A stretch of 28,614 nucleotides of DNA from IMG/VR virus record IMGVR_UViG_3300022871_000990, positions 1 to 28,614 of that record; one strand, written 5' to 3'. The DNA is from a virus. A program made the position numbers and the translations under genes. The notes beneath the pieces were generated by a model that was not told where the DNA came from, did not search any database, and was given only the letters and a program-made list of their open reading frames with translations. Positions 8,075 through 28,614 of this stretch are shown one piece after another; positions within the stretch are counted from its first letter, which is position 1, and every line of letters starts with the position of its first letter.

Positions 8075-8103
8075 TTTACCTCTGAAATGAAATCACCTAT
8101 ACT
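8075..8103 (+). promoter_or_regulatory. Promoter of GIY-YIG endonuclease gene 1
   Basis: TTTACC (8075-8080), a 17-base spacer, TATACT (8098-8103). The spacer contains GAAATGAAA, also present in the spacer of the promoter at 3340. Confidence 0.5.
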
Positions 8104-8108
8104 ATATG

Positions 8109-8209
8109 GCAGGAATAGGAAAGGACTAATTAACCTTCCCGAAAAGACCGGCCCCACAACCGGCCCTGTCCTGCTTCTCATAAATTGTGGTAACAATGTG
8201 GAGTTGCAA
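8109..8209 (+). ncRNA. Structured 5' leader RNA of homing endonuclease (copy 2)
   Basis: Same architecture as the leader at 3372. P1 is GCAGGA (8109-8114) with TCCTGC (8169-8174). P2 is CCGG (8148-8151) with CCGG (8160-8163) and an 8-base loop. P3 is GTAAC (8190-8194) with GTTGC (8203-8207) and an 8-base loop that holds GTGGA. ATG follows at 8210. P2 has a wholly different sequence from copy 1 but keeps the pairing and loop size; P3 has a U-G in place of C-G. Confidence 0.65.
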
Positions 8210-8911
8210 ATGAAGACCAAAATCTATGCCTTGCGGGATGAAGACCGCTGGCTCCGGTATGTGGGGAAAACTGGTAAGCCACTTCCTGTCCGCCTCATTA
8301 TCCATTTACGGGAGGCACAAGCTGGTGTTCGGACACACAAGTGCAATTGGATTCGCTCGATGTTGAGGCATGATTTGATTCCCACCATCACGCTAATTGA
8401 GGAGGTTGAAGGGGGTGGAAATGATGAGGAACGCAAATGGATTAAGTACTTTTATGATCATGGCATTGAACTCGTTAATGGAACTGATGGGGGTGATGGT
8501 GGTAACACAATACTGCGCTTTTCTCCTGAAGAATATGCAGAATTCAGAAAGAAGTGCAGTCATCAAGCGACAGACGAATACCGCAAAAATATGAGTCGAA
8601 TAAAGAAAGGCCACCCGGTATCACAAGAACAAAGACAAAAATTAAGTATAGCAAACAAAGGGCAAATTCCTTGGATGAAGGGGAAGCATCCTGTTCTTTC
8701 TGAAGAACACAAAATGAATATAAGCAAGGCGATGAAAGGAAAACACTGGTTCCTTTCAGAGGAAACAAAAAGAAAAATGAGTATAGCGAAGAAAGGCAAA
8801 CCCTCTTGGCATAAAGGAAAACGGCGTTCTGAAGAAACAAAGAAAAGAATGAGTGCTTCAGCCAGAAAAAGAAAAAAGCAGGCAGGCCGTTGTTATTTTC
8901 ATATTAAATGA
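8210..8911 (+). CDS. GIY-YIG homing endonuclease with NUMOD3 repeats
   Basis: A 233-residue enzyme. The N-terminal GIY-YIG nuclease has KIYALRDEDRWLRYVGKTGK (GIY and YIG elements), an Arg-containing helix (RLIIHLREAQ) and the catalytic Glu in DEERKWIKYF, with the domain ending near GTDGGDGG. Residues about 105-225 hold at least four NUMOD3-type DNA-binding repeats of the form S(Q/E)E..(K/R)xxxSxAxKGK. ATG 8210 has GGAG seven bases upstream; a longer in-frame ATG at 8087 would overlap the promoter and leader. It is probably mobile by itself: own promoter, own leader, inserted between the helicase and the next transcription unit. Confidence 0.87.
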   Translation: MKTKIYALRDEDRWLRYVGKTGKPLPVRLIIHLREAQAGVRTHKCNWIRSMLRHDLIPTITLIEEVEGGGNDEERKWIKYFYDHGIELVNGTDGGDGGNTILRFSPEEYAEFRKKCSHQATDEYRKNMSRIKKGHPVSQEQRQKLSIANKGQIPWMKGKHPVLSEEHKMNISKAMKGKHWFLSEETKRKMSIAKKGKPSWHKGKRRSEETKKRMSASARKRKKQAGRCYFHIK

Positions 8912-8983: not shown

Positions 8984-9535
8984 ATGAGCAAGAAACCTGC
9001 GAAGAAAGAAACGACAGCGACCCCGAACCGGGACGCAGCGAACGACATCAACGACGTCCTTAAGCCCGACCCGCTGCTGGATGTCAAGGCCGACGAGGCT
9101 GCGATCAAGACTGAACTTGATGAATTGCTGCCCAGCATCAAAGAGGACGACGACTTGACCCCGGCCACGTGGAAAACGCTGAAAGCGATGGGCTGGAAGA
9201 ACACAACGGAAAAAATAAAAACGAGCACGGCTGCAGGAACAAAAGCCGGTGCCAAATCTTCGGCCGTAAAATCGCCCAAAGCCAAGGCGGTTGCCTCGGT
9301 GAAGAAAACTACCCTGTCTCGCAAGGACGCGGTGTACGCGGTAATCGATGAAAAAGGGGGGACCAAAAAAGGAGTTAACTCAAAAGAACTCGAAATATCG
9401 TCGACGGAACGCATGGTGAAAGCCAATGGCACCGCTGGAACTAGTGCCAGCAACATCTGCAACAACGTGTTGGACGCGCTGGTTCAATATAAAATCATGT
9501 CGCGAGATGAGGACGGCCAATGCCGGTTCGCGTGA
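8984..9535 (+). CDS. Basic linker-type protein with C-terminal winged-helix-like domain
   Basis: A 183-residue protein, first gene of the modification cassette. ATG 8984 has AGGAGG about nine bases upstream; an in-frame ATG at 8912 lies inside the promoter and is rejected. The N-terminus is basic (MSKKPAKKE) and is followed by an acidic segment. Residues about 80-115 are a Lys/Ala/Ser linker of histone H1-like composition. The last 70 residues (LSRKDAVYAVIDEKGG through NICNNVLDALVQYKIMSRDE) look like a small winged helix. No catalytic motif is seen. It may bind DNA for the cassette enzymes, but it could also be an unrelated chromatin-like phage protein. Its 3' end overlaps the methyltransferase start by 16 bases. 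Confidence 0.55.
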   Translation: MSKKPAKKETTATPNRDAANDINDVLKPDPLLDVKADEAAIKTELDELLPSIKEDDDLTPATWKTLKAMGWKNTTEKIKTSTAAGTKAGAKSSAVKSPKAKAVASVKKTTLSRKDAVYAVIDEKGGTKKGVNSKELEISSTERMVKANGTAGTSASNICNNVLDALVQYKIMSRDEDGQCRFA

Positions 9536-10683
9536 TCAATCGTGGAATGAAACAGCAAGGGCTTCCATCTTGGTGGCCCTTGTCTGTTTCCATTCCTTAC
9601 ACAATGGCTGAGGTGAGGAAAGCATCTTCCGCGTGCCTTTTCACCGTTGCCAGTACCTTTTCCGGGTGCGGTGGGTCGTCCACTGGCTATCGTTTGGCAG
9701 GGGGCAAGGTGCTGGCGGTGAATGAATTTGTGCAAGCCGCAAGGGATTCATACTCGGCCAATTATCCCGACGTCACCATTCTCCCGGCGGACATACGCGA
9801 CATCACGGGGAAAGATCTTTGCGAGGCGGCAGGTGTTCGGAAGGGAGAACTTGATATTTTGGATGGATCGCCGCCATGCGCGTCATTTTCTACCGCTGGC
9901 AGTCGGGAAAAAGCATGGGGAAAAAGTAAAAAATACAGCGACACTGAGCAACGATGCGACGATCTGTTTTTCGAGTTTGCTCGCGTACTGCGTGAAGCCC
10001 AGCCCCGTTGTTTCGTTGCTGAAAACGTCAAGGGTCTTACAATAGGAATCGCGAAAAACGTGTTGGGCAATCGTCGACGTGGGTTCGCCGACGATCTGGG
10101 ACTTCCTCCCTCCGTATATTCTGAATTGCAGCAGTGTGGATACATCGTCGCGCACGCGGTGCTGAACGCAGCCGATTACGGAGTTCCGCAGATGCGCCGT
10201 CGTGTTATCTTTATCGGGGTGCGAAAAGATTTAAATATAGCGCCGACGCATCCCTTGCCCACCGTGTCGCGGTATGTTTCTGTTCGCGAGGCCATCGTCG
10301 GGGTGGTTAATAAACCTACCGATTTTTTCCCGCTTCCGACAAAAGGAACGGTAGCGCTGAGACTCCTCTGCGCGTGCAAACCAGGGCACAGCTGTGACGA
10401 ATACCATCCCAAAGGATTTTTTTTCCAATTTAGTCGACTAGAGGGGGATATCCCAAGTCTAACAATTCTTGCAGATGGACCACAATATCATTTCATGTGG
10501 AACGAGGACCGCTATTTGAGCATAGCGGAATGCAAACGAATCTGCGCGTTCCCTGACGATTTCATTTTGACAGGGAATCAAAGACAAAGATGGGAACGGA
10601 TGGGGCGTGCCGTTCCACCGTTGATGATGAAAGCTATCGCGGAACATGTATATAAAACTGTGTTGATGAAAACAAGAACTTGA
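9520..10683 (+). CDS. Cytosine-C5 DNA methyltransferase, predicted carboxymethyltransferase
   Basis: A 387-residue C5 enzyme with all core motifs in order: motif I FSGCGGSSTGY (47-57), motif IV GSPPC with catalytic C120, motif VI ENV (168-170), motif VIII QMRRRVIFIG (224-233), a short target-recognition region (about 237-310), motif IX-like LSIAECKRICAFPDDF, and motif X. In motif X the family-typical GNAVPP is GRAVPP, so the Asn contacting the cofactor site is R363. In an engineered bacterial C5 methyltransferase a basic residue at this position is reported to allow carboxy-SAM as donor. With the CmoA-like gene two positions downstream, transfer of a carboxymethyl group to cytosine is the favoured inference. 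ATG 9520 has AGGA seven bases upstream; 9547 and 9604 are weaker alternatives. Confidence 0.85.
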   Translation: MPVRVINRGMKQQGLPSWWPLSVSIPYTMAEVRKASSACLFTVASTFSGCGGSSTGYRLAGGKVLAVNEFVQAARDSYSANYPDVTILPADIRDITGKDLCEAAGVRKGELDILDGSPPCASFSTAGSREKAWGKSKKYSDTEQRCDDLFFEFARVLREAQPRCFVAENVKGLTIGIAKNVLGNRRRGFADDLGLPPSVYSELQQCGYIVAHAVLNAADYGVPQMRRRVIFIGVRKDLNIAPTHPLPTVSRYVSVREAIVGVVNKPTDFFPLPTKGTVALRLLCACKPGHSCDEYHPKGFFFQFSRLEGDIPSLTILADGPQYHFMWNEDRYLSIAECKRICAFPDDFILTGNQRQRWERMGRAVPPLMMKAIAEHVYKTVLMKTRT

Positions 10684-10702: not shown

Positions 10703-11956
10703 ATGTCCCGGTTGAATCAAATCGCGTTGGAGCTCAGGGAATTATTGGTGGACCAAATGCGACCCTTCAAAGGAGAACGAGTCGCGGTGTTTCTTTCCAG
10801 CGGGACGGATTCCATGTGCGTCCTGCATGCCTTGCTTGCCGCGAAGGCGAAACCCAGAGCGTATTCTTTTTTTATCGAGGGGGAAGAAAATCGGTTTGAT
10901 CCCGTCGTCGCGAAAAAAACCGCTGATTCCATCGGGATCAATTGGACTCCAATCCCGCTGGCATCTGATCCTACCGCCGCCGCTCGCAAAGCCGTTTTGG
11001 GACTGGGCGTTAAAAGCAAATGCGACGTGGAATGCGGTTGGCCGATGGCGGAAGCTTTGCAAGTCGTGGACGAGGCCGTTGTAGTTTCCGGACATGCCGG
11101 AGACGGCCATTTTGGTTTAACGAAAAAAGTGATGATGCACAAAGATCTTTTCGACGTGGAAAGGGATAGGTGCTTTGAAAATCCCGATTACGCGCAGGTG
11201 CGCACGTTGAAGTGGTTCGCCAAATGCTGTGGAAAATTGCTCTTCACCCCGTGGACCGACCCACGGATCATCCAATTATTGCGTGACCTGTCTTGGCGTG
11301 AGTTGAACCACCCGCGCCAAAAAGAAATTGCTCGCCTTGCCTTTGAAAAAGAATGCACCCTTTATCCCCCGAAACTCCATAGCGACCTGCACGCGGCAGG
11401 GACGGGGATTAAAGAGATGTTTCAGCACATTACCGAAGGGACTCGGTTCACGAACCCCGTTGCTGTTTATCATAGAATCAATTCATTGAGTCTCCCCGTG
11501 TTGGTAGGTCAAGCTCCCAGTAAAACTAGTGACGTGGAAAAACCACTTTCAGCTCGTCCCTTGTCCACCTCGTTGTGCCAATTATTGTCGTGCGATTTAT
11601 TGACGTACCTTTCTTCGTTTGAAAGGATCAATTTGTTGAATGCCTGGCCCGGATCTTCAAAGAAGGGGGATCTATTCCCCGCGCGCCTCGGGGCTGAGCG
11701 GGCGAAAGAATTGATCCCCTATTTTCGGGGACGCGAAGTTATCCTATTGGGAAGGAACGTTGCCAAGGCGTTTGGATTGCGCGACGAGTTCCCTCTTTTG
11801 CGGTATCGCCAAGAACACTGTTGCGAGATGGCGGTGGTGCCGCATCCATCGGGGGTAAATCTTTGGTGGAACGATGAAGAAAATAAAAAAGCCGCCGCGA
11901 CCTTTTTGAAATCAGCCATGGAGTCCGTAACGGATAAATTAAGGGGGGGTTTATAA
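10703..11956 (+). CDS. Asparagine-synthetase-like PP-loop ligase fused to a UDG-like domain
   Basis: A 417-residue two-domain protein. Residues 1-245 resemble the ATP-pyrophosphatase domain of asparagine synthetase B: PP-loop FLSSGTDS (30-37), then VVVSGHAGDGHFG (126-138) aligning with AsnB SGEGADELFG, and FTPWTDPRIIQLLRDL (181-196) aligning with 'SPFLDxRLVEFA'. The N-terminal glutaminase domain is absent. Residues about 265-410 look like a uracil-DNA-glycosylase fold: LVGQAPSK (267-274) in the place of GEAPG, VILLGRNVAKAF (346-357), and VVPHPSG (378-384) in the place of the HPS motif. The classic catalytic Asp is not evident, so base binding or flipping is more likely than excision. Inferred role: ATP-dependent amidation of a carboxylated base in DNA. 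AGGAGG precedes the ATG. Confidence 0.72.
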   Translation: MSRLNQIALELRELLVDQMRPFKGERVAVFLSSGTDSMCVLHALLAAKAKPRAYSFFIEGEENRFDPVVAKKTADSIGINWTPIPLASDPTAAARKAVLGLGVKSKCDVECGWPMAEALQVVDEAVVVSGHAGDGHFGLTKKVMMHKDLFDVERDRCFENPDYAQVRTLKWFAKCCGKLLFTPWTDPRIIQLLRDLSWRELNHPRQKEIARLAFEKECTLYPPKLHSDLHAAGTGIKEMFQHITEGTRFTNPVAVYHRINSLSLPVLVGQAPSKTSDVEKPLSARPLSTSLCQLLSCDLLTYLSSFERINLLNAWPGSSKKGDLFPARLGAERAKELIPYFRGREVILLGRNVAKAFGLRDEFPLLRYRQEHCCEMAVVPHPSGVNLWWNDEENKKAAATFLKSAMESVTDKLRGGL

Positions 11957-12708
11957 TGAAAGAAAAAAATAAGAATAAAGACAAGCTGGGAACGTACACG
12001 AACGGCAAGTGGAAGTTCGATGACAAAGTCACAGCATGTTTTGACAACATGTTGGAACGGTCGATTCCTCAATATAAATTGATGCGAGAATTAACCTTCC
12101 GCGTCGGAAGGCGTTTCGCGACTCTTGGAACTGCCGTTGTGGATCTCGGATGCAGTCGCGGCGGTGCTCTTGCAGAGTTTGTGGATGCCAAACGTCCCGA
12201 GGACCAGACGACGTTCATAGGAGTTGAAATTTCAGAACCAATGGCCCTCGCCGCTACCGAACGGTTTGAAAATCGCGACGACGTGGTGATACACCAAATA
12301 GATCTTCGCGAAACGTATCCTCCCGTAGTCACGCGGGACGGGATCTCGTGTGGGTCGTCCCTCACGCTCGCCGTGCTGGTCCTCCAGTTCATTCCCATCG
12401 AACACCGCCATAGGATTATTAAAAAAATATACCAGCAAACAATTTCCGGCGGGGCGTTGATCCTCGTAGAAAAAGTCCTCGGGAACACGGATGAATTGAA
12501 CGCCATGATGGTTCGCGAGTACTATGAGATCAAACGGATGAACGGATATACCGACGACCAAATCGAACGGAAGCGATTGTCCTTGGAAGGAGTTCTGGTC
12601 CCGATCACGGCGCGTTGGAACGAGGACATACTTCGAGAAAGCGGGTTCAGGCAGGTAGATTGTTTCTGGCGCTCGTTGAATTTCGCGGGATGGATCGCTA
12701 TTAAATAA
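11956..12708 (+). CDS. cmoA-like: Carboxy-SAM synthase, CmoA homologue
   Basis: A 250-residue Rossmann SAM enzyme. It aligns along its length with E. coli CmoA as I recall that sequence: [20 protein letters not shown] against [30 protein letters not shown] (61-70, motif I), [16 protein letters not shown] (158-173), and [20 protein letters not shown] (194-213) against [20 protein letters not shown]. R207 matches E. coli R199, the residue that binds the carboxylate of carboxy-SAM, and Y198 of NGY is kept. CmoA makes carboxy-SAM from SAM and prephenate; in bacteria CmoB uses it on tRNA U34. No CmoB-like gene is seen here, but a DNA methyltransferase is. Its start overlaps the ligase stop (TAATG), so the two are coupled. 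Confidence 0.85.
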   Translation: [250 protein letters not shown]

Positions 12709-13742: not shown

Positions 13743-14909
13743 ATGAACCCCGGGTTTTTTAAACAGAGTGTTACTTTTGCGGAAAAATGCGGTGTGGCTT
13801 GCACGCTTGATCGCGACTGCCGCTCTCCCAAGATGCCGGTCACCGGTGAAGGGCGAATGAGGATCCTCATCATTGCTGAAGCACCCGGTGAGCAGGAGGA
13901 CAGGCAGAATACGCAATTCATCGGCCCAGCCGGACAACTCCTTCGCAAGATTCTAGCCGAGCATGGAGTTGACCTTGACCGTGACTGCCGCAAGACAAAT
14001 GCTGTGAGATGCCGACCGCCTGAAAATCGCCGTCCTACGCGTCAAGAGATCGAGGCCTGCCAACAGCACGTCTGGGATGAGATCGCCCGTTCTAGGCCTA
14101 TCCTGACGCTTTTATTGGGGCAAATAGCGGTGGAATCCTTCCTGCTAGGCCGAATAACCAAAATAGGCCAGATCGGACGGTGGCGGGGCATGGCAATTCC
14201 AGACCAAAAAGCCGGGTGCTGGATCTGCCCGACATTCCATCCAAGCTATATTCTTCGTAGCCAGGAAGGAAGAATAATCAGGGGCAAGGCCAAACCAATT
14301 CTACCCACCGAGGAATTGATATTCAGGATGGATTTAGAACAGGCATTGACACTATTGGATAAACCATTTCCGGTCGCTCCTCCTCCTCAAGTAATGTGTG
14401 AGTGGCACTGGAGCACAAAACCCGGTGATACGGTCGCCATCGACTACGAAACTACCGGCCTGAAGCCCTACCGCAAAGGACATCGAATTGTGTCGGCTGG
14501 GATCAGCAATGGTGAATGGGCTTGGGCAGGTGAAATGACACCAAAGTTTGCCCGAAAATGGAAGCTATTGTTGGCCGATCAAAATATTAAAAAGATCGCC
14601 CACAACATGAAGTTCGAGCATCAGTGGGCTGCTCATTGTCTTGATGTGGAAACGCAAGGTTGGTTATGGGACACGATGCTTGCCTCACACATGGTTGATA
14701 ATCGCAAACTTTATTGTAAACTAAAGCACCAAGCGTATATCAACTTTGGTGTACCCGACTGGAGTGATGGCATAGATTTTGAGAACGATGATGACGACTT
14801 CGCTATCCATCCCACCGTGGTTACTGATAAGTTGCTGAGTTACAATGCTCTTGATGCTTTCTGGTGTTACAAATTATATGAGAAACAAATGGAGAAGTTC
14901 AAAAAATGA
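13743..14909 (+). CDS. Family 4 uracil-DNA glycosylase fused to 3'-5' exonuclease
   Basis: A 388-residue fusion. Residues 1-205 are a Fe-S uracil glycosylase of family 4: IAEAPGEQED (45-54), FIGPAGQLL (59-67) and FHPSYIL (165-171). C16, C20, C90 and C106 are placed like the cluster ligands; C90-C106 has the usual 15-residue gap. Residues about 225-388 are the proofreading domain of a family A polymerase: Exo I DYETTG (234-239), Exo II HNMKFE (287-292), Exo III YNALD (367-371). The polymerase domain is encoded by the next gene, overlapping by four bases. Likely function: uracil removal tied to proofreading at the fork. There is no clear ribosome binding site; the start is kept because later starts lose the N-terminal cysteines. 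Confidence 0.85.
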   Translation: MNPGFFKQSVTFAEKCGVACTLDRDCRSPKMPVTGEGRMRILIIAEAPGEQEDRQNTQFIGPAGQLLRKILAEHGVDLDRDCRKTNAVRCRPPENRRPTRQEIEACQQHVWDEIARSRPILTLLLGQIAVESFLLGRITKIGQIGRWRGMAIPDQKAGCWICPTFHPSYILRSQEGRIIRGKAKPILPTEELIFRMDLEQALTLLDKPFPVAPPPQVMCEWHWSTKPGDTVAIDYETTGLKPYRKGHRIVSAGISNGEWAWAGEMTPKFARKWKLLLADQNIKKIAHNMKFEHQWAAHCLDVETQGWLWDTMLASHMVDNRKLYCKLKHQAYINFGVPDWSDGIDFENDDDDFAIHPTVVTDKLLSYNALDAFWCYKLYEKQMEKFKK

Positions 14910-16261
14910 CTCCATTGTCCATGGACGGTTATAAACTCCTGCACGATAGTGCTTTGGTTTTTGCAGACATCGAGGCCACCGGAATCCGTATGGATGTCAA
15001 ATATCTCCATGAACAGGACATAGCTGTTGGAAATGACATTCTTGGTATAGAACGTCAACTTTGGAAGACGAGTGAGGCCAAAGAATGGAAACTTCGGTTC
15101 AAAGATAAGATCAAGTTCAGTGCCACGGCCCAACTGTCCGAAATGCTTTTTAAGCAATGGAAATACAAGCCCACCAAAACCACTCGGAAGGGTCGGGCAT
15201 CTGTCGATGATGAAGTGCTTCGTAAGATCAACAGTCCATTCACCCGACTCATTTTACAGCATCGAAAGTTGAGCACAGTAAGAAACACGTTCCTTTCCGG
15301 TTTGTTGGAGAATCAATTAAATGGGTTCCTACACCCATCTTTCAACTTGCATACGGTACTGAGTTATAGAGGGAGTTGTCATGGTCCAAACTTTCAAAAT
15401 CAACCCGTGCGTGATCCTGTTCAAGGAGAGATTGTCCGGAAGGCGTTCCTTCCCCTCATTCCAGAGCACCAGTTTGGGGAGATTGACTATAAAGGAAACG
15501 AGGTTGTCAGCAACGCTTGCTATAATCATGACCCAAACCTGGTGGCTTACATCAAGGATCCAACTAAGGACATGCATGAAGATTCCGCCAAGAACTGTTT
15601 CATCCTCCAACCAAAACAGATTGGGGAGATGATCCGATACGTCGGGAAGAACGGATTTACCTTCCCGGAATTCTACGGTAGCTATTTTATCAACATTGCT
15701 CCGGCTATGTGGTGGGCGATTACGGAGCATGGACTTACAACGGAGGATGGAATTCCTTTGTACCTCCATTTGAGGAATGAAGGAATTTCTAATGAGGAGG
15801 AATTTATAGACCACATCCAACAAGTGGAGCAACATTTTTGGGACGAGCGTTTTCCAACCTTTGCCAAGTGGAAAGTCAAGTGGTATGAAGCGTACCAGAG
15901 GAAAGGGTATTTTGACTTGCTTACCGGTTTCCGGTGTCAAGGTCCCATGCGTAAAAACGAAGTGTGCAACTATCCTGGGCAAGGAACAGCATTTCATTTT
16001 CTATTGTGGGGAATGGTGCGATTACACGAATGGTTAGTCAACAATGAAATGAAAACTCAAATACTCGGTGAAATACATGATTCAATTGTGATATCCTTCC
16101 ACCCGGATGAGACCATGACCGTGTTGCGTAAGGCTCGCAAGATTATGTGTGTGGACATTAGAAAGCACTGGAAATGGATTAACGTCCCGATGAGCATAGA
16201 AGCGGAAGTCGCCCCTGTGGGAAAATCGTGGCAGGAAAAACAACCTATGGAGATATCATGA
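14906..16261 (+). CDS. DNA polymerase I family, polymerase domain only
   Basis: A 451-residue family A polymerase lacking 5' and 3' exonuclease domains. A template-binding segment reads SYRGSCHGPNFQNQP. Motif A is GEIDYKGNEV with catalytic D194, in place of the usual DYSQIE. Motif B is IRYVGKNGFTFPEFYGSY, with K248 and Y257, and an unusual GFTFPEF instead of the NFG turn. Motif C is EIHDS with H391-D392. All catalytic acids are present. The proofreading domain is on the preceding gene, so the holoenzyme is split. The start overlaps the upstream stop and the stop overlaps the next start (ATGA), a tightly coupled unit. Confidence 0.88.
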   Translation: MTPLSMDGYKLLHDSALVFADIEATGIRMDVKYLHEQDIAVGNDILGIERQLWKTSEAKEWKLRFKDKIKFSATAQLSEMLFKQWKYKPTKTTRKGRASVDDEVLRKINSPFTRLILQHRKLSTVRNTFLSGLLENQLNGFLHPSFNLHTVLSYRGSCHGPNFQNQPVRDPVQGEIVRKAFLPLIPEHQFGEIDYKGNEVVSNACYNHDPNLVAYIKDPTKDMHEDSAKNCFILQPKQIGEMIRYVGKNGFTFPEFYGSYFINIAPAMWWAITEHGLTTEDGIPLYLHLRNEGISNEEEFIDHIQQVEQHFWDERFPTFAKWKVKWYEAYQRKGYFDLLTGFRCQGPMRKNEVCNYPGQGTAFHFLLWGMVRLHEWLVNNEMKTQILGEIHDSIVISFHPDETMTVLRKARKIMCVDIRKHWKWINVPMSIEAEVAPVGKSWQEKQPMEIS

Positions 16262-19470: not shown

Positions 19471-19499
19471 TTTACTTCTTAAAAGGAATATAATATAAT
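19471..19499 (+). promoter_or_regulatory. Promoter of GIY-YIG endonuclease gene 2
   Basis: TTTACT (19471-19476), a 17-base spacer, TATAAT (19494-19499). The -10 is perfect, and the spacing equals that of the other two homing endonuclease promoters. Confidence 0.6.
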
Positions 19500-19503
19500 G
19501 TAT

Positions 19504-19593
19504 GGCAGAAATAGGGTAGCTCCCGAAAAGATGGACACGACTACCATCCTGTTCTGCCTGTTCTTAGTCGCCACAACTAAAGTCGGAGTTGTT
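19504..19593 (+). ncRNA. Structured 5' leader RNA of homing endonuclease (copy 3)
   Basis: P1 is GGCAGAA (19504-19510) with TTCTGCC (19552-19558). P2 is GATGG (19530-19534) with CCATC (19544-19548). P3 is ACAACT (19573-19578) with AGTTGT (19587-19592) and an 8-base loop containing the GG of the ribosome binding site. ATG follows at 19594. Compared with copies 1 and 2, P1, P2 and P3 all change on both strands while keeping pairing. AATAGG after P1 and CCCGAAAAG before P2 are conserved. Confidence 0.65.
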
Positions 19594-20112
19594 ATGGAAT
19601 ATAAAATCTACGGTCTTTATAACGAGTATCACTATCTACGCTACATAGGGGCTACAAAGCGCCTACTTAAAAATCGCTTAAAAGAGCATTTACATCAAGC
19701 TCTTAAAGGCATACATACTCATAAATGCTGTGGTATTCGTGCTATGTTGTACCGTGGATTTTTTCCTACTATCAAATTATTCACTGAAGTAGAAAAATAT
19801 AAATGGCAGATAGTAGAACGAATCTATATTAAACATTTTCACGATCTTGGATATAATTTATGGAATGAAACAAGTGGTGGTGAAGGTTGTTCCGATCTTT
19901 CTTCCTTCGCGCGACAGAAAATGAGTTTGGCGCAAATAGGTAAAAAACACCCAGTAAATTATATTATTCCCATCAGGAAAAGAAAGATAATAGCACAGAA
20001 AGTCAGAGCGTATAGACTTGGTAAACACCATTCGGAAACAACTAAAAAGAAACAACGAAAAGCAACTATTGATCAGCATAGAGCGAAGGGTCACCACATG
20101 CCGGTGAAATAA
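19594..20112 (+). CDS. GIY-YIG homing endonuclease, shorter form
   Basis: A 172-residue relative of the endonuclease at 8210. KIYGLYNEYHYLRYIGATKR carries the GIY and YIG elements, RLKEHLHQALKGIHTHKC matches the Arg helix, and the catalytic Glu is in VERIYIKHF, with the domain closing at NETSGGEG. The C-terminal part has only one clear NUMOD3-like unit (ARQKMSLAQIGKKHP) and a basic tail (HHSETTKKKQRKAT), so the DNA-binding region is reduced against its 233-residue relative. ATG 19594 follows CGGAG; an in-frame ATG at 19498 overlaps the -10 box and is rejected. Located between SSB and recombinase genes. Confidence 0.82.
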   Translation: MEYKIYGLYNEYHYLRYIGATKRLLKNRLKEHLHQALKGIHTHKCCGIRAMLYRGFFPTIKLFTEVEKYKWQIVERIYIKHFHDLGYNLWNETSGGEGCSDLSSFARQKMSLAQIGKKHPVNYIIPIRKRKIIAQKVRAYRLGKHHSETTKKKQRKATIDQHRAKGHHMPVK

Positions 20113-27356: not shown

Positions 27357-27577
27357 ACCAACGTGCCGCAGAGTTAGAAGCCGCTGACAAGCGCATGGAC
27401 CCGCACGGCCAGATCATAGACTCCGGCGAGTTGCGGGCGTGGGAGAGGCATTTCGGGCCATGGTGCTATGCAGTCCAGCGGTATTGTAAGAAGAGCAGAG
27501 GGCTGTGTGCGAACAGATGCTGGCAGACGTGGCGGGGATTGAACAATGAAAAACATCGCATCATTTTCGGGTGGTAA
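27338..27577 (+). CDS. Small hypothetical protein
   Basis: A 79-residue protein: an acidic helical N-terminus (IDQRAAELEAADKRMDP), then ELRAWERHFGPWCYAVQRYCKKSRGLCANRCWQ, rich in Trp and Cys. AAGGAG precedes the ATG. It overlaps the upstream gene by 19 bases and the downstream gene by 32. No family recognised. Confidence 0.5.
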   Translation: MYQSQIDQRAAELEAADKRMDPHGQIIDSGELRAWERHFGPWCYAVQRYCKKSRGLCANRCWQTWRGLNNEKHRIIFGW

Positions 27578-28322
27578 AGACAGTACAGCCATGGTCTTGC
27601 GGTTGATCGAGGAAGACTGGCCGCTGGATGAGATCGTATTCTTCGACACCGGGTGGGAGTTTCCGCAGATGCACGAGCACATTGACAGATTTGAGCAGTA
27701 CATCGGGAGGCCGATTACTCGGTTGCATCCTCGAGAGTCATTTGACTATAAAATGTGGATCAAACCCATTGTGCGAAGAAAGAAGTCATGTCCGATGCAC
27801 GGCAAGGTGTACCGCTGCGGCAATGGATGGCCCTCGTTCTTTAGCCGCTGGTGTACCCGTGAGAAGGTTGACGTGATTGACCGATATTGCGGCGACGCTC
27901 TGCAATATGTTGGGATTGCGGCAGATGAGACAAAACGGCTTAAAATGCGCAACTATCCCTTGGTTAAGTGGGGGATGACGGAGGCAGATTGCCTTCAACT
28001 GTGTTTGGATAAGGGGTTTGATTGGGGTGGGCTTTATAACCACTTTGACCGGGTGTCGTGTTTTTGTTGCCCGCTCAAAAGATTAGACGATTGCCGCACA
28101 TTACGAAAGTATTACCCGCCACTGTGGGGCAGAATGATTGAGATGGGCGACAACGTGAGAAGTCTAGAAGGTAGGCGGTTTCACCATGGCAAGACGGTGC
28201 GTGACCTTGAAGAACGATTTGCCCAAGAAGATAAGCAACAATGGTTACGACTGGACAAAATAGCAAGCCGGGACGTGGCGGGGATTGAGGACGTGAAACA
28301 AACAACAATCAAGGAGGAATAA
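27546..28322 (+). CDS. PAPS-reductase-family PP-loop protein
   Basis: A 258-residue adenine-nucleotide alpha-hydrolase-fold protein. The PP-loop is SFSGGKDSTAM (7-17), then FFDTGWEFPQMHEHI, typical of the phage phosphoadenosine phosphosulfate reductase family, and C-terminal CFCCPLKRLDDCRTLRKYYP, a Cys cluster seen in such phage proteins. Other cysteines (CPMHGKVYRCGNG, RWCTREK) may form a metal site. The known family activity is ATP- or PAPS-dependent sulfur chemistry; the phage members are mostly uncharacterised and this one need not be a sulfate reductase. There is no Dnd or other phosphorothioation gene nearby. Confidence 0.75.
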   Translation: MKNIASFSGGKDSTAMVLRLIEEDWPLDEIVFFDTGWEFPQMHEHIDRFEQYIGRPITRLHPRESFDYKMWIKPIVRRKKSCPMHGKVYRCGNGWPSFFSRWCTREKVDVIDRYCGDALQYVGIAADETKRLKMRNYPLVKWGMTEADCLQLCLDKGFDWGGLYNHFDRVSCFCCPLKRLDDCRTLRKYYPPLWGRMIEMGDNVRSLEGRRFHHGKTVRDLEERFAQEDKQQWLRLDKIASRDVAGIEDVKQTTIKEE

Positions 28323-28325
28323 AGT

Positions 28326-28614
28326 ATGAAGTTTGAAATTAAACATCGTTTTTCTGGTGGCATATTGTTTAGTTGCGAAAGTGAAACATTAAAATTAGCA
28401 GTTAATTTGGCAATTAAGTCAAACGCCGACTTGCGTTCCGCCGACTTGAGTTACGCCAACTTGAGTTACGCCGACTTGAGTTCCGCCAACTTGAGTTCCG
28501 CCGACTTGAGTTACGCCAACTTGCGTTACGCCGACTTGAGTTCCGCCGACTTGCGTTCCGCCGACTTGAGTTACGCCAACTTGAGTTACGCCAACTTGCG
28601 TTACGCCAACTTGC
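28326..28614 (+). CDS. Pentapeptide-repeat protein, 3' end beyond window
   Basis: The frame opens at ATG 28326 after a strong AAGGAGG and is still open at the window end. After a 33-residue N-terminal segment ([20 protein letters not shown] and following), the protein becomes A(D/N)L(S/R)(S/Y) pentapeptides, at least twelve in a row. This is the right-handed beta-helix repeat of the Qnr/MfpA type, some members of which mimic DNA and protect or inhibit gyrase. The gene's role here is unknown. At DNA level it is a 15-base tandem repeat (see repeat entry). Confidence 0.8.
28427..28614 (+). repeat. 15-base tandem coding repeat
   Basis: About twelve tandem copies of GCC(G/A)ACTTG(A/C)GTT(A/C)C, encoding A(D/N)L(S/R)(Y/S). 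Nucleotide identity between units is much higher than protein conservation needs, indicating recent expansion. It continues past the window end. Confidence 0.85.

Follow-up and report, generated by a model that had tools for sequence, protein, structure and literature searches.

The window, by which we mean the whole 28,614-nucleotide stretch analysed here (IMG/VR record IMGVR_UViG_3300022871_000990), in all likelihood belongs to the genome of a tailed phage and carries a CmoX/CmoY/CmoA operon for post-replicative cytosine hypermodification, a judgement that applies to the CmoX, CmoA and Arg363 part. By analogy with a characterised homologue, the cmoX product very probably attaches carboxymethyl, not methyl, to DNA cytosines, and the evidence supports Arg363 as the cofactor-selecting residue. 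The system was described in Synechococcus phage S-B43 (Nat Commun, Dec 2025; PMC12783734), for whose proteins the chemistry of CmoA, CmoX and CmoY is established; the gene order, residues, folds and evolutionary correlation are established here.

Table 1. Positions of the operon features in the window.
Feature	Position	Strand	Basis
cmoX, C5-cytosine-methyltransferase-fold predicted DNA carboxymethyltransferase, 387 aa as called	9520..10683	+	PF00145, 8YF3, tree
Catalytic Cys120 codon, GSPPC motif (SpCmoX Cys98)	9877..9879	+	invariant column, alignment A5
Arg363 codon	10606..10608	+	motif X position of HhaI Asn304 / SpCmoX Arg350 (PMC12783734)
CmoY-like ATP-dependent amide ligase domain, asparagine-synthetase type, without glutaminase	10703..11479	+	PF00733, phrog_26038, fold
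UDG-superfamily-like domain fused to ligase, residues 260-417 (158 residues)	11480..11953	+	phrog_12275, PF03167, AF2, VIA
UDG-like motif A, GQAP, residues 269-272	11507..11518	+	G in 52/54 sequences
UDG-like motif B, PHPSGVNLWWN, residues 380-390	11840..11872	+	six residues 54/54
cmoA, carboxy-SAM synthase homologue	11956..12708	+	1-base overlap with ligase stop; 1IM8/4GEK, TIGR00740, phrog_4752

The three genes lie on one strand in the order cmoX, ligase gene, cmoA, within 3.2 kb (Table 1). The cmoA product matches the solved CmoA structures 1IM8 and 4GEK (2e-26 and 4e-25) and phrog_4752 (1e-67), and keeps the KRxNGY segment. Its match to the NCBIfam CmoA model TIGR00740, which was presumably built on cellular CmoA, scores 136 bits (E 1.3e-39) and is thus below the curated cut-off of 193; the ligase match is likewise below curated NCBIfam cut-offs. 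The setting is that of a tailed phage, with genes for a primase, helicase, clamp (identified from its translation alone), clamp loader, family-A polymerase and RecA-like, gp32-like and SbcCD-like proteins around the operon.

Two frames whose translations resemble, by eye, GIY-YIG homing endonucleases (8087-8911, two genes upstream of cmoX, and 19498-20112) lie within this replication gene region. A further UDG-superfamily domain (PF03167, 2e-25), joined to a 3′-5′ exonuclease, is encoded at 13743-14909, immediately preceding the family-A polymerase gene (14906-16261); the polymerase of phage phiLo (PDB 9QHS, with a modified template) has a related UDG-like domain at its N-terminus. The product of 27546-28322 is PAPS-reductase-like (PADLOC SspD, 1e-22; phrog_424, 5e-45), and this could be another nucleotide or sulfur modification gene. 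The last frame, 28326-28613, encodes a pentapeptide-repeat-like protein and is incomplete at the window end.

CmoX and the arginine at motif X

The cmoX product matches the Pfam DNA_methylase family PF00145 (3.8e-50), and among all solved structures its best PDB match is 8YF3, SpCmoX of S-B43 (E 2e-84), to which it is ~45-49% identical. In the tree it falls in a 100/100-supported CmoX clade of 12 rows together with S-B43 and S-CRM01. The SPPC motif with the catalytic Cys is present as GSPPC (Cys120). Moreover, SpCmoX Phe25, Glu47, Phe48, Asp69, Cys98 and Arg350 correspond to the invariant residues F47, E69, F70, D91, C120 and R363 of alignment A5; in SpCmoX the Cys is the nucleophile and the other five contact carboxy-SAM (Cx-SAM; PMC12783734).

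The original prediction that an Arg replaces the motif X Asn in this C5 enzyme is borne out. The frame encodes a protein that includes RWERMGRAVPPLMMK, with Arg at residue 363, and positions 10606-10611 read CGT GCC (R363-A364). R363 lies opposite the Arg of GRMVPPLMMK, residue 350 in 8YF3 (phmmer, 361 aligned residues). The same column holds Asn in HaeIII (MIGNAVP) and DNMT1 (QVGNAVPP), which confirms its assignment by alignment here, and the published overlay does so for HhaI Asn304. Ordinary C5 enzymes, including phage ones without CmoA, also have Asn in this column. The numbering runs from the ATG at 9520 and homology to SpCmoX begins only at about residue 24, therefore the true start of cmoX may lie downstream and R363 would then be numbered lower.

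A sequencing or frame error at the Arg363 codon was ruled out, as the identical Arg is found in two other IMG/VR contigs, which are almost the same as the window where they overlap it. The cmoX genes of these contigs (L003 and L004) differ from that of the window by 13-14 nt, and 12 of the differences fall in two short clusters, 10111-10152 and 10460-10475. The second cluster causes the changes L314P, L317V and D319S, and here it is the contigs that fit the family consensus PSPTI.A and the window that departs from it. Local allele exchange, or a mixture of strains, appears to account for this pattern in the enzyme's C-terminal part.

That a natural Arg with a neighbouring CmoA gene marks a C5 enzyme using carboxy-SAM, as originally predicted, is supported, since the same has been shown biochemically and structurally for the S-B43 homologue. 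Phage CmoA uses SAM and prephenate to form carboxy-SAM, and SpCmoX produces 5-carboxymethylcytosine (5cxmC) in GC motifs from carboxy-SAM only, not from SAM; its Arg350, in place of HhaI Asn304, contacts the carboxylate of the cofactor (PMC12783734). Target specificity may vary from one CmoX to another. Therefore the interpretation of Arg and CmoA is right in substance, yet it is explained by a published system: the CmoA-like neighbour is real, but the supposed coincidence is not unexplored territory, the pathway, the Arg and a crystal structure all having been published. The predicted gain of methyl transfer by an R363N mutant is unlikely, as R350N of SpCmoX accepted neither SAM nor Cx-SAM (PMC12783734).

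For the window, CmoA would convert SAM and prephenate into carboxy-SAM. CmoX would then flip a cytosine out of the helix, Cys120 would attack C6 and the carboxymethyl group would be moved to C5, with a salt bridge from Arg363 to the carboxylate making carboxy-SAM, not SAM, the substrate.

The ligase and its fused UDG-like domain

The ligase gene spans 10703-11956 and encodes 417 residues. The original prediction does not extend to this gene, whose fused extra domain makes it the more unusual feature of the operon. Its N-terminal domain matches PF00733 (Asn_synthase, 2.8e-5) and phrog_26038 (2e-25), its ATP-pyrophosphatase loop reads SSGTDS and the gene adjoins both cmoX and cmoA. The whole protein (P0002) and its C-terminal domain have no phmmer match in the PDB, but fold comparison gave matches. 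The ligase model (pLDDT mostly >90 over residues 1-220) is matched by Foldseek to beta-lactam synthetase (2e-10) and also to AsnB/ASNS.

CmoY of S-B43 joins glycine to the carboxylate of 5cxmC (PMC12783734). By analogy, the substrates of the window ligase should be 5cxmC and an amino acid, which may be glycine: the enzyme would adenylate the new carboxylate and then attach an amine to it, and the lack of a glutaminase domain makes glycine or some other amino acid the likeliest source of that amine. That the amine is not glycine but a polyamine or a different amino acid, which would make the final base differ from 5gcxmC, we judge to be close to an even question. Identity to SpCmoY is only ~25%, the segment after His226 (SDLHAAGTG) deviates from the usual HxNLQLG, and ligase clusters with differing pocket residues have been reported (PMC12783734); against this, residues 1-258 keep every column that is invariant in 29 CmoY-like ligases, and the lack of a glutaminase is shared with the glycine-using cluster.

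The C-terminal domain matches phrog_12275 (2.6e-25) and, weakly and below gathering, Pfam UDG PF03167 (E 0.0019). Its AlphaFold2 model (pLDDT 94.4) has the UDG alpha/beta fold, with VIA giving Z ~11-12 over 141-150 residues against E. coli MUG, human TDG, family-4 UDG and UdgX, and Foldseek E-values of 5e-5 to 1e-3 for the best matches. The ligase and UDG-like domains were modelled separately, since a mixed alignment (A8) misaligned the two halves; pLDDT in the C-terminal half of the full-length model is <50. In motif B (PHxSGxNxW), P380, H381, S383, G384, N386 and W388 are present in 54/54 sequences, and Asn310 is invariant too.

Chance fusion of the ligase frame was ruled out, as it is uninterrupted over 417 aa and 100% identical in two contigs. 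The fetched loci contain 97 distinct CmoY-like ORFs, and only one of them, that of the window and the near-identical contigs, carries the UDG-like domain, which is absent from the remaining 96; the search for ligases in viral contigs used a three-row alignment.

Our account of the UDG-like domain is inferred throughout, as are the choice of amine and the activities of the window proteins. Most likely the domain binds the duplex and keeps the modified base flipped out so that the ligase can act on it. Such a base-presenting role is consistent with the covalent fusion, with a motif A that varies and with pocket residues that are conserved, and we propose it as a possibility held with somewhat less than even confidence. 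We regard it as rather unlikely that the domain is an active DNA glycosylase and not a base-flipping aid, whether removing unligated or wrongly modified cytosine or attacking host DNA. The fold (Z ~12 to TDG, including its complexes with 5-carboxylcytosine, to MUG and to family-4 UDG) and the strict conservation of the motif B His and Ser and of Asn310 would suit an active enzyme. However, family-4 enzymes have Glu at the motif A position after the first Gly, whereas the window domain has Gln270, as placed from the sequence motif and not from a measured superposition, and the position varies across the family (Q27, E14, M5, I4, L3, K1). Moreover, removing a genome-wide mark would be self-harm for the phage, and covalent fusion to the ligase better suits substrate presentation.

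The base-presenting role may extend to relatives of the domain. A domain search found 63 loci with the UDG-like family, 43 of them with hypermodification genes: 11 have CmoA and CmoX, 7 a CmoX-clade methyltransferase with no CmoA seen, 16 M6-type aGPT/radical-SAM genes and 9 a TET-associated glycosyltransferase in the contig, whilst in 20 none of these was found. The TET-associated glycosyltransferases (PF20691) accompany the UDG-like family in L047 (~3.7-6.5 kb) and in contigs L035, L048, L049, L067, L074, L078, L087 and L090. TET/JBP (PF12851) gave no match near the UDG-like genes nor in controls, an absence that is uninformative. The UDG-like domain was found in only 1/29 CmoX records and in 0/19 ordinary C5-methyltransferase records, an all-empty result from a model that is positive in CmoX records. 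Therefore the domain is an occasional partner of CmoX and most of the 63 loci in which it occurs have hypermodification genes. Only tentatively, we suggest that the phrog_12275-like UDG-fold family is a common base-flipping presenter in the carboxymethylcytosine/CmoX, M6-type thymine and TET-associated-glycosyltransferase pathways, the fusion to a decorating enzyme in the window revealing this role. The fusion offers a direct way into a glycosylase-like family that is uncharacterised and is found with three chemically different hypermodification pathways, and is itself a candidate self-contained DNA amide-labelling enzyme.

Motif X arginine and CmoA across C5 enzymes

Among C5 enzymes with CmoA in the flank, all 89 scored rows from the fetched loci have Arg at the motif X column. 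The 28 without CmoA in the flank comprise 16 Asn, 2 Ser, 1 Lys and 9 Arg. One of these nine comes from an Erwinia phage (L027) whose genome encodes CmoA at another site, and seven are S-B43-like enzymes for which CmoA was looked for in the fetched flank only; the other, L040, has Arg yet no CmoA in its 62-kb contig. This tracking of CmoA by Arg across lineages makes Arg363 more than chance. That cmoX encodes an ordinary 5-methylcytosine enzyme tolerating a motif X Arg, with CmoA a tRNA-modification gene nearby by chance, is highly improbable, for although bacterial CmoA serves tRNA cmo5U and L040 shows Arg with no CmoA in the contig, Arg and CmoA go together in several lineages and SpCmoX uses Cx-SAM only, its Arg contacting the carboxylate (PMC12783734).

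Staphylococcus phage F1 encodes both CmoA and CmoY although the column holds Gly, showing that Arg is not the sole solution. Its methyltransferase (L029, 5825-6829) reads VVGGVINQL there.

Since the rows are related, the C5 tree was built without the motif X columns. A single Arg clade was rejected (p-AU 9.5e-6), and at least four changes at the motif X column are forced by well-supported branches. Independent pairs on supported branches gave an agreement between Arg and CmoA of ~3/3, too few for significance. Far from the SPPC-bearing CmoX clade, GGFPC-type enzymes adjoining CmoA (L196/L199, L209 and L218/L221/L226/L238) have Arg, e.g. YERCGRAVTVNVI. The nearest kin of the L218 group, phage 5093 and its relatives at ~44% identity, have Asn (YKQAGNSVTVNVI), and no CmoA was found in the record of phage 5093 and its kin. 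Arg therefore arose more than once, including in GGFPC-type enzymes beside CmoA.

The GGFPC-type Arg enzymes lie at 1676-2743 in L218, 4895-5944 in L223, 7680-8555 in L196 and 7733-8926 in L209, the PC-motif type having been read for L218, L223 and L196. They are candidate independent carboxymethyltransferases. The published candidate search demanded SPPC plus Arg (PMC12783734) and would thus overlook such GGFPC-type candidates.

Inside the CmoX clade, Asn occurs at motif X in L051/L053, L069 and L073, and the contigs of L053, L069 and L073 (72, 24 and 60 kb) contain no CmoA. A return to methyl transfer is probable for these enzymes. They also have extra N-terminal regions of >200 residues, and a UDG-like gene adjoins. 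Taken together, evolution alone, in several lineages, supports one residue switching C5 enzymes between SAM and carboxy-SAM.

Comparison with known systems

Two features were not found in the literature searched and add to the published system: the ligase-UDG fusion, and the recurrent acquisition of Arg, linked to CmoA, by enzymes outside the SPPC clade. The main text of PMC12783734 makes no mention of glycosylases or UDG. Like S-B43, the window has the same three gene families adjacent, the same catalytic Cys and SPPC and the same motif X Arg. However, the gene order is X-Y-A in the window and A-Y-X in S-B43, and the window ligase is ~25% identical to SpCmoY (271 aa), with the extra C-terminal UDG-like domain in the window only.

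The engineered CpG methyltransferase M.MpeI N374K is a C5 enzyme able to use carboxy-SAM (as cited in PMC12783734) and shares with the window enzyme a basic residue in place of the motif X Asn. It is engineered and has Lys, whereas the window enzyme is natural, has Arg and is encoded beside a CmoA and a ligase.

Streptomyces phage TurkishDelight and Pseudomonas phage PaBG resemble the window in clustering a CmoX with Arg, CmoA and an AsnB-type ligase. The UDG-like protein was not found in the record of either phage, ParB-like genes lie upstream of both cassettes, and the TurkishDelight ligase includes a glutaminase, unlike that of the window.

The fused domain itself is 37% identical over 146 residues to the phrog_12275 protein of Pseudomonas phage M6 (ORF047/048 region; AN14_07), which belongs to the M6-type cluster for thymidine hypermodification in Pseudomonas Yuavirus phages. 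The M6 protein is free-standing (168 aa) and thymine-linked, whereas the window domain is ligase-fused and cytosine-linked.
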